IMG/VR virus record: IMGVR_UViG_3300007960_000216
Coordinates: 1-22,555 of that record
Length of the DNA: 22,555 bases
Direction: 5' to 3' (one strand)
Origin: a virus
The translations under genes and the position numbers were made by a program. The notes beneath the pieces were generated by a model, which saw nothing but the letters and a program-made list of their open reading frames with translations, did no database searches and had not been told where the DNA came from. How positions within the stretch are numbered: position 1 is the stretch's first letter; each line of letters begins with the position of its first letter. This document shows, piece after piece, positions 4,732 to 13,738 of the stretch.

Positions 4732-4960
4732 GCTTATCCTCCTCTGGATTATAAGAATATTCTTCTGCGCTTGCTAACATACCTTTAGCTAGCCATGGGT
4801 TCATGTTTTCACTTACATCTGTCATTAGGTATCTTGTACCTTCGAAGTCACTCCACTCGCTAACAAGTACCCAGCCTGTACAAATCTGACTATCAGAATC
4901 ATCTAGCTCTTCTGCTAGTATTCTCATAGCCTTATCTATGGCTTCTGTGAACTTGTTCAC
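4721..4960 (-). CDS. Small acidic hypothetical protein
   Basis: 79 codons with a GTG start that overlaps the stop of the HslV-like gene (GTGA), so it is probably translationally coupled. The protein is acidic. It has an N-terminal helix (FTEAIDKAMRILAEEL), then a probable beta segment around TGWVLVSEWSDFEGTRYLMTD, and a C-terminal helix with MNPWLAKGMLASAEEY. No metal-binding cysteines, signal peptide or membrane segment. I do not recognise a family. The strand pattern with tryptophans suggests a compact alpha/beta fold rather than disorder. It lies between a protease-like gene and structural genes, so a head-assembly or virion role is likely. Confidence 0.7.
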   Translation of the reverse strand: MNKFTEAIDKAMRILAEELDDSDSQICTGWVLVSEWSDFEGTRYLMTDVSENMNPWLAKGMLASAEEYSYNPEEDKRGS

Positions 4961-5502
4961 TTTGGTTGTTCTTCTATTTGGTAGGGGGCTGCTGTGTATG
5001 CACTAACTCTTGCGGCAACTTCCATTGCTGCGAGGGCATCAGCGCCTGCATAAAGAGCGCCAAGTGCGTAAGCACCTCCGCTGCCGATGGCATAGAATCC
5101 TGCTTCACTCTTCATCACCGCCAAGTCTTGGTCGACATCAAAGAGTTCGCCACCAACCGCGATTAGAAATTGGAATCTTAATCCATCTTTATCTTTGTCA
5201 TGAGGTTCATCAAAATTATATCCATTAGTAGTAAGACATTTGCGAAGGGAAGGCATAGCCTTAACTATCATGTAGCGATATGCGTCCTTTTTGTCTTTTG
5301 CTGTGAAAGCTGGAGGTGTCCAGATATTCTGTGCTATATCGCAAGGAGCTACTTCTCCTGCTCCTGCTATTAACAATGCACCACGTGCTGTTATCTTCTT
5401 CATTACCGGGTGTGAATATACCTTACCGCCGTCATCAGTTATCCGGCTGTCTGCAACGATAACTGACTTCTTATCATATTCAACGCCAATGATTGTTGTC
5501 AT
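4957..5502 (-). CDS. HslV/proteasome-beta-like Ntn-hydrolase (threonine peptidase), candidate maturation protease
   Basis: 181 codons starting MTTIIGV. Removal of Met would expose Thr1, the nucleophile of proteasome-fold peptidases. Counting from that Thr, Asp17, Arg19 and Thr21 (ADSRIT) fall exactly where HslV and proteasome beta subunits have D/E17, R19 and T21. A Lys-Lys-Ile at 34-36 fits catalytic Lys33 with a two-residue insertion. The later IGSGGAYALGALYAG matches the HslV Ser129-region signature, and the C-terminal YTAAPYQIEE resembles the HslV end. Length is close to HslV (~175 aa). A strong ribosome site (AGGAGGGG) precedes the ATG. There is no HslU/ClpX-type ATPase nearby. Its place right after the portal gene is where phages usually carry a prohead protease, so a capsid-maturation role is a reasonable inference. 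A defence or host-protein degradation role is also possible. Confidence 0.85.
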   Translation of the reverse strand: MTTIIGVEYDKKSVIVADSRITDDGGKVYSHPVMKKITARGALLIAGAGEVAPCDIAQNIWTPPAFTAKDKKDAYRYMIVKAMPSLRKCLTTNGYNFDEPHDKDKDGLRFQFLIAVGGELFDVDQDLAVMKSEAGFYAIGSGGAYALGALYAGADALAAMEVAARVSAYTAAPYQIEEQPK

Positions 5503-9462: not shown

Positions 9463-9552
9463 GCGATTTAATAAGCCTGCGGTCAAAGTTTCCTGAGTGC
9501 TTCCTGAGTGTATCCTGAGAGCCTGACGGCTCATGGTTCCTGAGAATTACCT

Positions 9553-9569
9553 GAGAGCCTATGGCTCTC
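9553..9569. repeat. Perfect hairpin within the iteron array
   Basis: GAGAGCC-TAT-GGCTCTC is a seven-base-pair stem with a three-base loop. It begins inside the iteron at 9550 and ends just before the first SOS-type box. A smaller sister hairpin, GAGCC-TGAC-GGCTC, lies at 9519-9532. Confidence 0.55.
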
Positions 9570-9585
9570 TAGAACATTTGTTCTA
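9570..9585. promoter_or_regulatory. SOS/LexA-type operator 1
   Basis: TAGAACATTTGTTCTA contains GAAC-N4-GTTC, the core of the LexA box of Gram-positive bacteria and actinobacteria, inside a 16-bp dyad with seven-base perfect arms. It lies in the gap between iteron clusters. Either host LexA or a phage repressor with similar specificity could bind. Confidence 0.65.
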
Positions 9586-9678
9586 ATTTATAAACTGAGA
9601 ATTATCTGAGTTATTCCTGAAAGTTTTCTGAGTGAGTGACTATCCCCCCGCCACCTATCGGGCGTGTGGCGTAGGTCA

Positions 9679-9694
9679 TAGAACAAGTGTTCTA
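9679..9694. promoter_or_regulatory. SOS/LexA-type operator 2
   Basis: TAGAACAAGTGTTCTA is a second GAAC-N4-GTTC palindrome. It shares the outer TAGAACA and TGTTCTA arms with operator 1, 109 bp away. It is one base from the CRP-type box at 9696. Two near-identical palindromes argue for a true operator pair. Confidence 0.7.
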
Positions 9695-10742: not shown

Positions 10743-10887
10743 GGATAGCATGTTAGAGTTTAGCGTGACGAATTGGGGGATAACCTTCAATACCGCACCG
10801 CTTTACTTCAATCTATCGTGGGGCTTTACAATAGTGCTAATCGGCGCTATAATTGCCCGCAAGATAGTGAAAGCGAGGAATAAGTGA
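10741..10887 (+). CDS. Single-pass small membrane protein (48 aa, or 45 aa from 10750)
   Basis: From the ATG at 10741 there is a GGGGTG site upstream. However, the -10 of a good promoter overlaps this ATG, and a second in-frame ATG at 10750 falls at the predicted transcription start. Both forms may be made: the long one from readthrough mRNA, the short one from a leaderless message. Residues ~28-41 (LSWGFTIVLIGAIIA) form one membrane helix, followed by a basic RKIVKARNK tail that should remain in the cytoplasm. The stop overlaps the GTG of the next gene. Function is unknown. Confidence 0.65.
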   Translation: MDSMLEFSVTNWGITFNTAPLYFNLSWGFTIVLIGAIIARKIVKARNK

Positions 10888-11039
10888 GCAACTATTTCGG
10901 GCTACGGCTACGCGACTACGCATGGTACTACTTGTACCACGCGCCACGCACCGCGTTAGATAAACGCTACCGCAAACGCCATGAAGAATTGGAATCCCTA
11001 CTCAGGGAAGCCTACAAGAGAGGACTACTAGACAAGTGA
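10884..11039 (+). CDS. Small basic/aromatic hypothetical protein (51 aa)
   Basis: 51 codons from a GTG that overlaps the previous stop (GTGA); its own stop overlaps the next GTG in the same way. The N-terminal half is rich in Tyr and Arg (DYAWYYLYHAPRTALDKRYRKR). The C-terminal half is an amphipathic helix (HEELESLLREAYKRGLLD). No known family. The tandem start/stop overlaps are the main evidence that it is translated. Confidence 0.6.
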   Translation: MSNYFGLRLRDYAWYYLYHAPRTALDKRYRKRHEELESLLREAYKRGLLDK

Positions 11040-11269
11040 CACCTTTCCACCTAACAACTCATGAGGGTGCTAACCCTGATGATTTTATCCTAGTGATAAC
11101 TCCTAGTGAGATGGAGTACATACGCACTAGCCTACGCAACGAGAGCGCACGGCTACGCAAGCAAGGATTCACGGGGCTTCAAGCCTATGTGGATAATCTT
11201 AGAGATAAGATTTCCAACATGATGATTGAACAAGCACAAGATAGTTTTGACAAGCGCGCCAAAGTTTGA
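11036..11269 (+). CDS. Small hypothetical protein (77 aa)
   Basis: 77 codons from a GTG overlapping the previous stop. After a short N-terminus (FHLTTHEGANPDDFILVITPSE) the rest is predicted helical and charged (EYIRTSLRNESARLRKQG...DNLRDKISNMMIEQAQDSFDKRAKV). No cysteine cluster, membrane segment or recognised domain. Its 3' end contains the -35 of the promoter for the amidoligase gene, so it is probably the last gene of the first early block. Confidence 0.6.
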   Translation: MTPFHLTTHEGANPDDFILVITPSEMEYIRTSLRNESARLRKQGFTGLQAYVDNLRDKISNMMIEQAQDSFDKRAKV

Positions 11270-11275
11270 TAGTAT
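11247..11275 (+). promoter_or_regulatory. Promoter of the amidoligase/amidotransferase pair
   Basis: TTGACA (11247-11252), a 17-base spacer and TAGTAT (11270-11275). The expected start near 11282 leaves a 25-base leader that includes the AAGGGGGTG ribosome site. It lies in the last codons of the preceding gene and just after them. Confidence 0.6.
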
Positions 11276-11306: not shown

Positions 11307-12530
11307 ATGTCAGAAGAAGCAGAAGTAGAAGTCGGTACATGTATCTCATGCTCAACAGAGTATCCGATAGATGAACTAAATACCACAGAGGATAGCGACC
11401 TTGTATGCTCGGATTGTATCCAATCATGCGAGCGTTGCGGTATGGTAGGCACAAGTGATTACAGTTGGTATTCGGTAGATGATGAATCATGGTGCGAGCA
11501 TTGTTGGGAAAACGATTCCTTCCATTGTACTCGTTGCGAATACACCTACAATAGCAACAGGGTAGAGTATAGCATAGTACGCGGTAATAGTTGGAACGAG
11601 TCGTGGTGTGAGCATTGTATAAGTGACTATGCCACCTATTGTGACAACTGTAATGAATACTATGCTGACGATAGTGGCGAGTGCCCACAATGCGAGGGTA
11701 ATGGTGCGGGTAATGTCCATAATTATTCGCACAAGCCTAACCCTGTATTTCATGGTAGCGCACCGACCAACCTATTCATGGGCTTTGAGTTAGAGATGGA
11801 ACTCAACTCAATAGGTAGTGCTGAGTATCGTGAAGCGGTAGCCGGTGTCACAGAGTTAGAGTCTGATAGTGTATGCTATCTCAAGTCTGACTCAAGCATA
11901 CACGGCACGGGCTTTGAGCTAGTCACACACCCGCATACTCTCGGTGCTTATGAGCAAGCCGACAAGTTGTGGGAATACATAGAATTACTACGCACCCAAT
12001 ACAGAGCGCGTAGTTATGACACCGATTCATGTGGGCTACATGTCCATGTATCTCGGAGTGCGTTCAAGTCGGGCGCACATACTCACCGATTCCTCTCCTT
12101 GATTTACAAGAATCCTAAGGAGATGATGAAACTAGCAGGGCGTAAGAACTCTCGCTACGCACAATTCTCTGATGTCTATAAGCCTGATGAATGGGGTATC
12201 CCACGATTCAACTTACACGACAAGATACATGCTGGCTTCCGTACCGAGCGTTATAGCGCGGTCAATACCGGCAACGATTACACACTAGAATTGCGCTTCT
12301 TCCGTGGCAACATGAAGCGCGAGGGCGTTATGTCTGCCCTAGAATTGTGCCACGCTTCGGTAGAATACACTCGTGACATGAGCGTGTCTGATGTCAAGTT
12401 AGGTATGCTCAAGTGGGAGTGGTTCGCCGATTGGGTAGAAGCCAACAATGGTGTCTATCCTAACCTATACTTGCGCATGTCCAAAGTGCCAAGTGTATCT
12501 CTTGATAACCGACCACTAATCAACGCTTAG
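11307..12530 (+). CDS. GS-like amidoligase with N-terminal zinc ribbons
   Basis: 407 codons. Residues 12-129 hold a string of Cys pairs (C12/15, C34/37, C41/44, WCEHC at 62-66, C74/77, WCEHC at 100-104, C112/115, C126/129), probably several zinc ribbons. The second part matches the putative amidoligase family related to glutamine synthetase (carboxylate-amine ligase): GFELEME at 159-165, a central GTGFELVTHP at 200-209, SCGLHVHVSR at 241-250 and LELRFFRGN at 327-335. These supply the acidic and His residues for ATP/metal and substrate binding. Family members are thought to join an amine to a carboxylate using ATP. A glutamine amidotransferase gene follows ten bases later and could supply ammonia. 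The substrate (a host protein, peptide or cell-wall precursor) cannot be read from the sequence. Confidence 0.85.
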   Translation: MSEEAEVEVGTCISCSTEYPIDELNTTEDSDLVCSDCIQSCERCGMVGTSDYSWYSVDDESWCEHCWENDSFHCTRCEYTYNSNRVEYSIVRGNSWNESWCEHCISDYATYCDNCNEYYADDSGECPQCEGNGAGNVHNYSHKPNPVFHGSAPTNLFMGFELEMELNSIGSAEYREAVAGVTELESDSVCYLKSDSSIHGTGFELVTHPHTLGAYEQADKLWEYIELLRTQYRARSYDTDSCGLHVHVSRSAFKSGAHTHRFLSLIYKNPKEMMKLAGRKNSRYAQFSDVYKPDEWGIPRFNLHDKIHAGFRTERYSAVNTGNDYTLELRFFRGNMKREGVMSALELCHASVEYTRDMSVSDVKLGMLKWEWFADWVEANNGVYPNLYLRMSKVPSVSLDNRPLINA

Positions 12531-12540
12531 GGGGTGTTAT

Positions 12541-13455
12541 ATGTGTCTATTAGTTGTCTGTAAGCCTGGTGCTACACCAAAGCACGAGGAACTTACAGAG
12601 GGCGCGTGTGCTAATCCGCACGGCTATGGGTTCGCCATGGTAATTGACGGCAAGATTTTCCGCTATCGTACCATGTCTGCTCGTAAAGCCGTGTCCAAGT
12701 TTATCCACATGCGCCAACAAAATCCTCACGGCTATGCTATTTGGCATGCCCGTTATGCTACGCATGGCGTAAAGAACGAGGATAACTGTCACCCGTTCCA
12801 AGTGGGTGACGATACTGATACAGTACTAGCGCACAATGGTGTGCTAGATACTTTCATAGGGAAAGATGATAAGCGTAGCGATACGCGTATCTTCGCAGAG
12901 GATACCTTGCCTAAACTCGGCGGGGTATGTGCTTTGGAAGATGAGAATCTGTACCGCATGGTTGAAGGGTGGGCTTCGGGTAGTAAGATAGCCGTGCTCA
13001 CGACCAACCCTAACGCCCAGTACCAGTTGTATCTAATCAACGAGCGACTCGGTACATGGGACGACAATGGTGTATGGTGGAGTAATTCCTCGTACAAGCG
13101 GAATACCTACTCGTACAAGGATTACTACAAGTCAGACACCAAGCCCGCCACTACCACTATACATGAGTCAGACTACGCCGAGGAGCAGAAGCATTATGAA
13201 GAACTCCTTGACGCGCTAGATGAGCAAGTCACCATAGACATGTGCCCCTCATGCGAAGCCCTCATTGACATAGATAGGTCAGCAGAGTACTGCCAGTACT
13301 GTGACTGCTGTATGTCATGCTACGCCACATGGCAGGATTGTATGTGCTACACACCAGCAAGCGCACGCAAGCCCTACTCCAATGACTTTGACAATCATTG
13401 GGTAAGAGTGTATAATAAACACAACACAACTGAACACTTGAACTTGATTTACTAA
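12541..13455 (+). CDS. Class II glutamine amidotransferase (Ntn) with C-terminal Cys-rich ribbon
   Basis: 304 codons with a TAGGGGGTG ribosome site. The protein begins Met-Cys, so Met removal exposes the Cys2 nucleophile of class II amidotransferases. HGYGFAMV (27-34), WHARYATHG (68-76, glutamine-binding Arg) and AHNG (97-100, oxyanion-hole Asn/Gly) fit the family. A bulk-fold region to ~residue 170 is followed by a Ser/Thr/Tyr-rich linker and a C-terminal cluster with CPSC, CQYCDCC, SCYATWQDCMC, probably one or two zinc sites. It would release ammonia from glutamine for the amidoligase encoded just before. No synthase or phosphoribosyl domain is attached, so it is not PurF, GltB or GlmS. A perfect promoter for the next genes lies inside its 3' end. 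Confidence 0.85.
   Translation: MCLLVVCKPGATPKHEELTEGACANPHGYGFAMVIDGKIFRYRTMSARKAVSKFIHMRQQNPHGYAIWHARYATHGVKNEDNCHPFQVGDDTDTVLAHNGVLDTFIGKDDKRSDTRIFAEDTLPKLGGVCALEDENLYRMVEGWASGSKIAVLTTNPNAQYQLYLINERLGTWDDNGVWWSNSSYKRNTYSYKDYYKSDTKPATTTIHESDYAEEQKHYEELLDALDEQVTIDMCPSCEALIDIDRSAEYCQYCDCCMSCYATWQDCMCYTPASARKPYSNDFDNHWVRVYNKHNTTEHLNLIY
13388..13416 (+). promoter_or_regulatory. Consensus sigma70 promoter (TTGACA-N17-TATAAT)
   Basis: Both hexamers are perfect and the spacer is 17 bases. It lies in the last codons of the amidotransferase gene, with an expected start near 13423, and would drive the block 13478-15524 that includes whiB. Confidence 0.75.
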
Positions 13456-13477: not shown

Positions 13478-13738
13478 ATGACCAAGCAAGAACTCGTCAG
13501 CTTTGCTGATGAACTACGCGACATCGCTTATCTACTTGAAGCCAAAGCAGATGAGCAAGACAACTACTACCCACGCGGTACTATTGTCAAAGCACTACCC
13601 GAGCAGACCCGCTTCAAGCCTAAGTCTATGTGGGTATCACTAGGCGACGGTACTTACCGCCACCTCAATGGCAAGAAGGGACTCGTCACTAAACATGACA
13701 GACTCGACGGATTCACAAGCGTTATCTTCAGCGCGTAA
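13478..13738 (+). CDS. Hypothetical protein (86 aa)
   Basis: 86 codons with an ACTAGGAGC ribosome site before the ATG. A charged N-terminal helix (KQELVSFADELRDIAYLLEAKADEQ) is followed by a region likely rich in beta strands (RGTIVKALP, KSMWVSLGDGTYRHL, LDGFTSVIFSA). No cysteines or membrane segment. The family is not recognised. It is the first gene behind the perfect promoter at 13388, and its 3' end overlaps the next gene by 44 bases in another frame. Confidence 0.65.
   Translation: MTKQELVSFADELRDIAYLLEAKADEQDNYYPRGTIVKALPEQTRFKPKSMWVSLGDGTYRHLNGKKGLVTKHDRLDGFTSVIFSA

Follow-up and report, generated by a model that had tools for sequence, protein, structure and literature searches.

The window analyzed here is a virus record of 22,555 bases from a freshwater actinobacterial phage, and is itself a genome fragment. 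Two adjacent genes were found on its plus strand, at positions 11307–12530 (407 aa) and 12541–13455 (304 aa), separated by 10 bases, exactly as given in an earlier note on this DNA. The first encodes a glutamine synthetase (GS)-like amidoligase, and the second encodes a class II glutamine amidotransferase (GATase). Both belong to a plus-strand gene block, which is flanked on the left by minus-strand structural genes (terminase and portal) and on the right by minus-strand replication genes; whiB is located downstream. Two small plus-strand ORFs adjoin the pair: one of 77 aa upstream (11036–11269), conserved in closer relatives, and one of 86 aa downstream (13478–13738), present in closer relatives only. 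The best placements of the ligase and the GATase in PHROGs are families 22302 and 25883, both of unknown function. Neither Rfam elements nor tRNA were found within the window.

The first protein matches Amidoligase_2 (PF12224) with 28.4 bits against the curated cut-off of 22. The amidoligase motifs quoted in the earlier note were all found, with key residues that do not vary among 44 aligned sequences from related phages: E161 and E163 in GFELEME, H245, H247, and R250 in CGLHVHVSR, and E328 and R330 in LELRFFRGN. E204, R315, and N320 are likewise invariant. Based on the motifs of GS, we take E161, E163, E204, H245, H247, R315, N320, E328, and R330 to have catalytic roles. In the AF2 model (pLDDT 86.4), the ligase core (residues 152–399; 11760–12503) shows a glutamine synthetase fold. 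All 50 matches listed are chains of the GS superfamily, the best with a Z-score of 12.2 and 3.4 Å over 188 residues. They include glutamine synthetases, YbdK, plant glutamate-cysteine ligase, GmaS, and Dop, with which the core also shares the ExE, HxH, and ExR types of motifs. Unlike in these proteins, the ligase is paired with a separate GATase as the presumed source of ammonia and carries an array of CxxC motifs, and a sequence search against the PDB gave no match to GS-superfamily proteins.

This array consists of eight CxxC motifs N-terminal to the ligase core, at residues 12–129 (11340–11693), and it corresponds to the long run of Cys pairs described earlier. It was recognized from the alignment, the model, and a PDB sequence match. 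Conservation of its Cys residues among the 44 relatives is complete or at least 90% in nearly all cases. The spacing is LIM-like, and the closest sequence match in the PDB is a LIM domain, although it is weak (E-value 0.013). LIM domains are protein-binding modules. The array is presumed to form four zinc sites. Almost every member of the freshwater phage and actinobacterial groups retains the array, and it is reduced to one to three CxxC motifs in mycobacteriophage Marvin, locus L033, and mycobacterial plasmids.

The second protein matches GATase_6 (30.4, cut-off 27) and GATase_4 (27.1, cut-off 23). Its Met-Cys start and Cys-rich tail had been pointed out previously, and both M1-C2 and eight Cys residues of the tail are invariant among 38 aligned GATases. 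R71, T74, N99, G100, and D114 are also invariant. We assume that C2, R71, N99, G100, and D114 correspond to C1, R73, N98, G99, and D123 of GlmS. In the AF2 model (pLDDT 81.3), residues 1–189 (12541–13107) form an Ntn-type glutaminase domain, whose fold matches the GlmS glutaminase domain and EgtC with a Z-score of 13.9. The similarity to these two proteins includes the N-terminal Cys and the residues of the glutamine site. The GATase differs from them in being a separate subunit with a Cys-rich tail, whose partner is a GS-like ligase. The tail Cys residues (residues 235–269; 13243–13347) presumably constitute two zinc sites, and the tail is retained by nearly all Actinomycetota-associated members. 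The expected families are thus matched by both proteins, and the catalytic residues are intact.

A sigma-70-type promoter, TTGACA-N17-TAGTAT, is located at 11247–11275 on the plus strand, with a score of 10/12 and TG before the −10 box. A site with a score of at least 10/12 was found upstream of the ligase gene in 44 of 68 distinct relatives and in 1 of 77 control stretches; owing to the kinship among the relatives, this contrast is not a probability. The earlier note called this promoter dedicated. The site exists and recurs, but the word is too strong: the promoter falls inside the 3′ end of the 77-aa ORF, and stronger promoter-like sites are present at 10825 (11/12) and 13388 (12/12). The latter is a promoter of perfect consensus, TTGACA-N17-TATAAT (13388–13416, plus strand), in the 3′-terminal part of the GATase coding sequence. 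At the end of the GATase gene, a promoter of at least 11/12 was seen in 32 of 73 relatives, recurring in the closer ones, so transcription is not simply that of a single dedicated operon. The position and strand of the pair suggest that it would be expressed early.

The two genes are almost always neighbors. The first locus set yielded 106 loci with both genes; these mostly overlap or are separated by 10–12 nt, the modal gap. In a larger set, whose loci overlap and are not independent, the GATase adjoins the ligase in 186 of 187 viral rows with enough downstream room and in 105 of 113 genome rows. Overall, of the more than 200 viral and chromosomal loci, almost all have the two genes side by side. 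The mirror-tree comparison of ligase and GATase gave a rho of 0.865 (shuffle maximum 0.159), a correlation that by itself could be caused by shared ancestry. A sharper test was performed with 18 actinobacterial loci, nearly all from Nocardia, that contain two tandem pairs, by swapping partners within each locus. The rho was 0.922 for true partners, while it averaged 0.39 for the swaps, with a maximum of 0.71. For ligase and GATase alike, 36 of 38 nearest neighbors were from the same copy position. The loss of correlation upon swapping and the same-copy neighbors indicate that each ligase evolves with its own downstream GATase. As judged from this paralogue-specific co-evolution, the ligase and the GATase very probably constitute one enzyme. 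The functional pairing proposed by the earlier note is supported by adjacency and co-evolution together.

Several loci depart from the simple pair. Two Nocardia loci (L209 and L214) contain three tandem ligase-GATase pairs each. In an element from Sciscionella (locus L200, 9709–10986), an AbiLi-like ATPase defence gene adjoins the pair. Ligases lacking a GATase neighbor were found from the Clostridioides difficile phage AR1086-1, from giant Pseudonocardia proteins, and in eight genome rows, and thus the wider ligase family can do without the GATase. The ligase of AR1086-1 (locus L117, 3674–5863) has neither the CxxC array nor a GATase and is followed by an RlaP RNA-repair-type gene. The Pseudonocardia loci L252 and L253 include frames that run for more than 4,200 codons without a stop and contain this ligase domain, which appears twice in L253, again without the CxxC array or a GATase. 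Near the start of the frame in L252, the sequence looks FHA-like by eye.

Close relatives of the pair are encoded by metagenomic virus contigs. Named relatives are gp105/gp106 of mycobacteriophage Marvin, the pairs of the OM43 phages MEP401 and MEP402, and that of phage ctgrD200. The pair is also carried by plasmids of Mycobacteroides abscessus and Mycobacterium intracellulare, and was found in genomes of Nocardia, Actinokineospora, Actinoplanes, and other Actinomycetota. Neighbors at the genome loci were counted via named families; gene clustering is noisy from antisense frames in high G+C sequences. In 7 of 14 genomes tested, Prim-Pol lies within 6 kb of the pair on the same strand, with 0–7 Prim-Pol matches per genome. 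An integrase and an excisionase-like HTH gene are beside the pair in locus L232, and an integrase is at most about 4 kb from the pair in two further genomes. The loci of Nocardia and related genomes are read, from their gene content, as integrative or plasmid-like elements. FtsK/TraSA-type genes were absent beside the pairs among the matches listed, and therefore the label AICE was dropped and they are designated as integrative or replicating elements. The pair is not phage-specific; in Actinomycetota, plasmids and integrative elements carry it as well as phages.

The acI bacterium LanE-43 is the host of an isolated Planktophila phage, LanE43AprF5 (OX376641; PMC10202952). This phage has a backbone in common with the window, with identities of 79% for terminase, 78% for portal, and 83% for helicase. 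The host of the phage in the window is thus probably acI Actinobacteriota. No match to the ligase or the GATase was found in LanE43AprF5, even at the E-value of 10, which indicates that the pair is accessory.

Pairs of this kind are already known in phages, a point overlooked by the earlier note: they occur in Marvin, in OM43 phages, and in LUZ24/phiEco32-like podoviruses. In Marvin (Marvinvirus), which also has an actinobacterial host, the ligase gp105 and the GATase gp106 are adjacent in the same order and on the same strand, with identities of ~33% and ~29%, and the GATase has a Cys-rich tail. The Marvin ligase differs in having ~3 CxxC motifs instead of eight and a long C-terminal extension. 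The Methylophilales (OM43) phages MEP401 and MEP402 encode an adjacent pair near replication genes, to which their authors assigned PF12224 and PF13522 (PMC10580990); the identity is ~25–30%, CxxC motifs are few, and the GATase has no Cys tail. In the podoviruses phiEco32, LUZ24, UFV-P2, and PSA-HP1, an early gene cluster likewise holds Amidoligase_2 and a class II GATase, but their cassette adds a gamma-glutamyl cyclotransferase, an ATP-grasp enzyme, and a second ligase. In the LUZ24-like phage UFV-P2, an amidoligase, a GATase, an ATP-grasp enzyme, and a GGCT-like gene constitute one early cluster (PMC3890496).

Such phage pairs have been annotated since ~2009, and no demonstrated product was found in the literature searched, in agreement with the earlier note, which knew of no biochemically solved phage example. 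The partner-specific co-evolution, the occurrence on plasmids and other mobile elements, and the accessory status are new here, and the mobile distribution is wider than stated in the literature searched. Because cultivable actinobacteria carry the pair on plasmids and in their genomes, an experiment to find the product is feasible. If the product is an amidated protein or wall component, the pair would represent a new way in which actinobacterial mobile elements modify their hosts.

Glutamine-dependent carboxylate amidation by the predicted two-subunit enzyme is well supported by anatomy, modeled fold, and co-evolution. The N-terminal Cys (C2) of the GATase would strip ammonia from glutamine and pass it to the GS-fold subunit, which would activate a carboxylate with ATP, through an acyl phosphate, and convert it to a carboxamide. 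The CxxC array and the Cys tail of the GATase may act as zinc modules that join the two subunits, dock a macromolecular substrate, or both. In the phage of the window, the pair would be expressed from host-type promoters. It is reasonably probable that this two-subunit amidating enzyme is a mobile accessory module of the phages, plasmids, and integrative elements of Actinomycetota, and its most likely use would be to alter an envelope component or a protein of the host during conflicts with it or with competing elements. The earlier suggestion that the Cys modules select the target, and that the putative target is a host protein, an RNA polymerase factor, or a wall precursor, is plausible. As a more doubtful extension, the pair would serve actinobacterial mobile elements as a general conflict module, based on zinc-guided and glutamine-fed amidation of a specific host or rival macromolecule; the tandem copies in Nocardia and relatives would then be paralogues acting on different targets. 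A known anti-phage defence system was rejected, since the search of both proteins against PADLOC-DB 2.0 gave no credible match to a defence family.

Envelope and protein targets appear about equally likely in our analysis, and either one is tentative. In the case of a protein target, a side chain or the C-terminus of a host or phage protein would be amidated, while the zinc modules dock protein or nucleic acid. The LIM-like spacing of the array, with its retention in nearly all freshwater phage and actinobacterial members, and the presence of Dop among the fold matches are consistent with this, although the reduction of the array in Marvin, L033, and the mycobacterial plasmids is not. No substrate gene is constantly linked to the pair. 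The 86-aa downstream ORF and the 77-aa upstream ORF are limited to closer relatives and have no invariant C-terminus among relatives, so a dedicated peptide substrate encoded next door is not supported. Pup-like ligation was also considered because of Dop, yet the near-constant GATase partner favors ammonia as the nucleophile, and the presence of family members in Methylophilales phages is a further argument against it.

In the case of an envelope target, amidation or cross-link editing of peptidoglycan would block the adsorption of competing phages. Equivalent enzyme classes constitute the cassette of phiEco32/LUZ24-like podoviruses, a set itself proposed from comparative genomics to modify peptidoglycan and hypothesized to block superinfection (PMC5498523). 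Reports on OM43 phages and on clostridial prophages extended the proposal to the genes described there; the OM43 report repeats the superinfection idea with credit to Iyer 2009 and Mageeney 2012 (PMC10580990). No experimental test of the cassette proposal was found in the literature searched. Among 23 relatives of 38–41 kb, gamma-glutamyl cyclotransferase (GGACT, PF06094) was found in none, while 9 of 14 control genomes were positive, and the second COOH-NH2 ligase (PF14395) was found in none by a search that had no positive control. The full peptidoglycan cassette is therefore unsupported, and an envelope target is weakened to that extent. Neither protein has an obvious signal or membrane segment as read by eye, and thus the substrate would be a cytoplasmic precursor.

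A role in making a small amide metabolite, or in scavenging nitrogen for nucleotides during infection, seems unlikely. GATase and GS folds are commonly associated with the amidation of small molecules, and the pair was annotated among auxiliary metabolic genes (PMC10580990), but Cys-rich arrays are unusual for a small-molecule enzyme, and the occurrence on plasmids and integrative elements and in tandem copies does not suggest a simple nutrient role. DNA base hypermodification that shields the phage genome is very improbable: some phage thymidine hypermodification pathways use amide-forming ligases, but among the ORFs of the window and those listed for a 39-kb relative, part of which were searched against family libraries, none was recognized as a modification gene, and the acI phage LanE43AprF5 infects its host without the pair.

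Other features were recognized outside the pair. A minus-strand gene at 4957–5502, adjoining the portal gene, encodes a Proteasome/HslV-like Ntn hydrolase (Pfam Proteasome, 22.2 bits, just below the cut-off of 22.4), which is possibly a capsid maturation protease. Two perfect palindromes, TAGAACA-NN-TGTTCTA, are present at 9570–9585 and 9679–9694 within 1 kb of repeat-rich sequence that lacks long ORFs, against 0.12 expected by chance. They contain the core GAACN4GTTC and are similar to LexA/DinR boxes. A cluster of CCTGAG-containing direct repeats (9487–9637) lies upstream of the plus-strand block and is a possible control or origin region.
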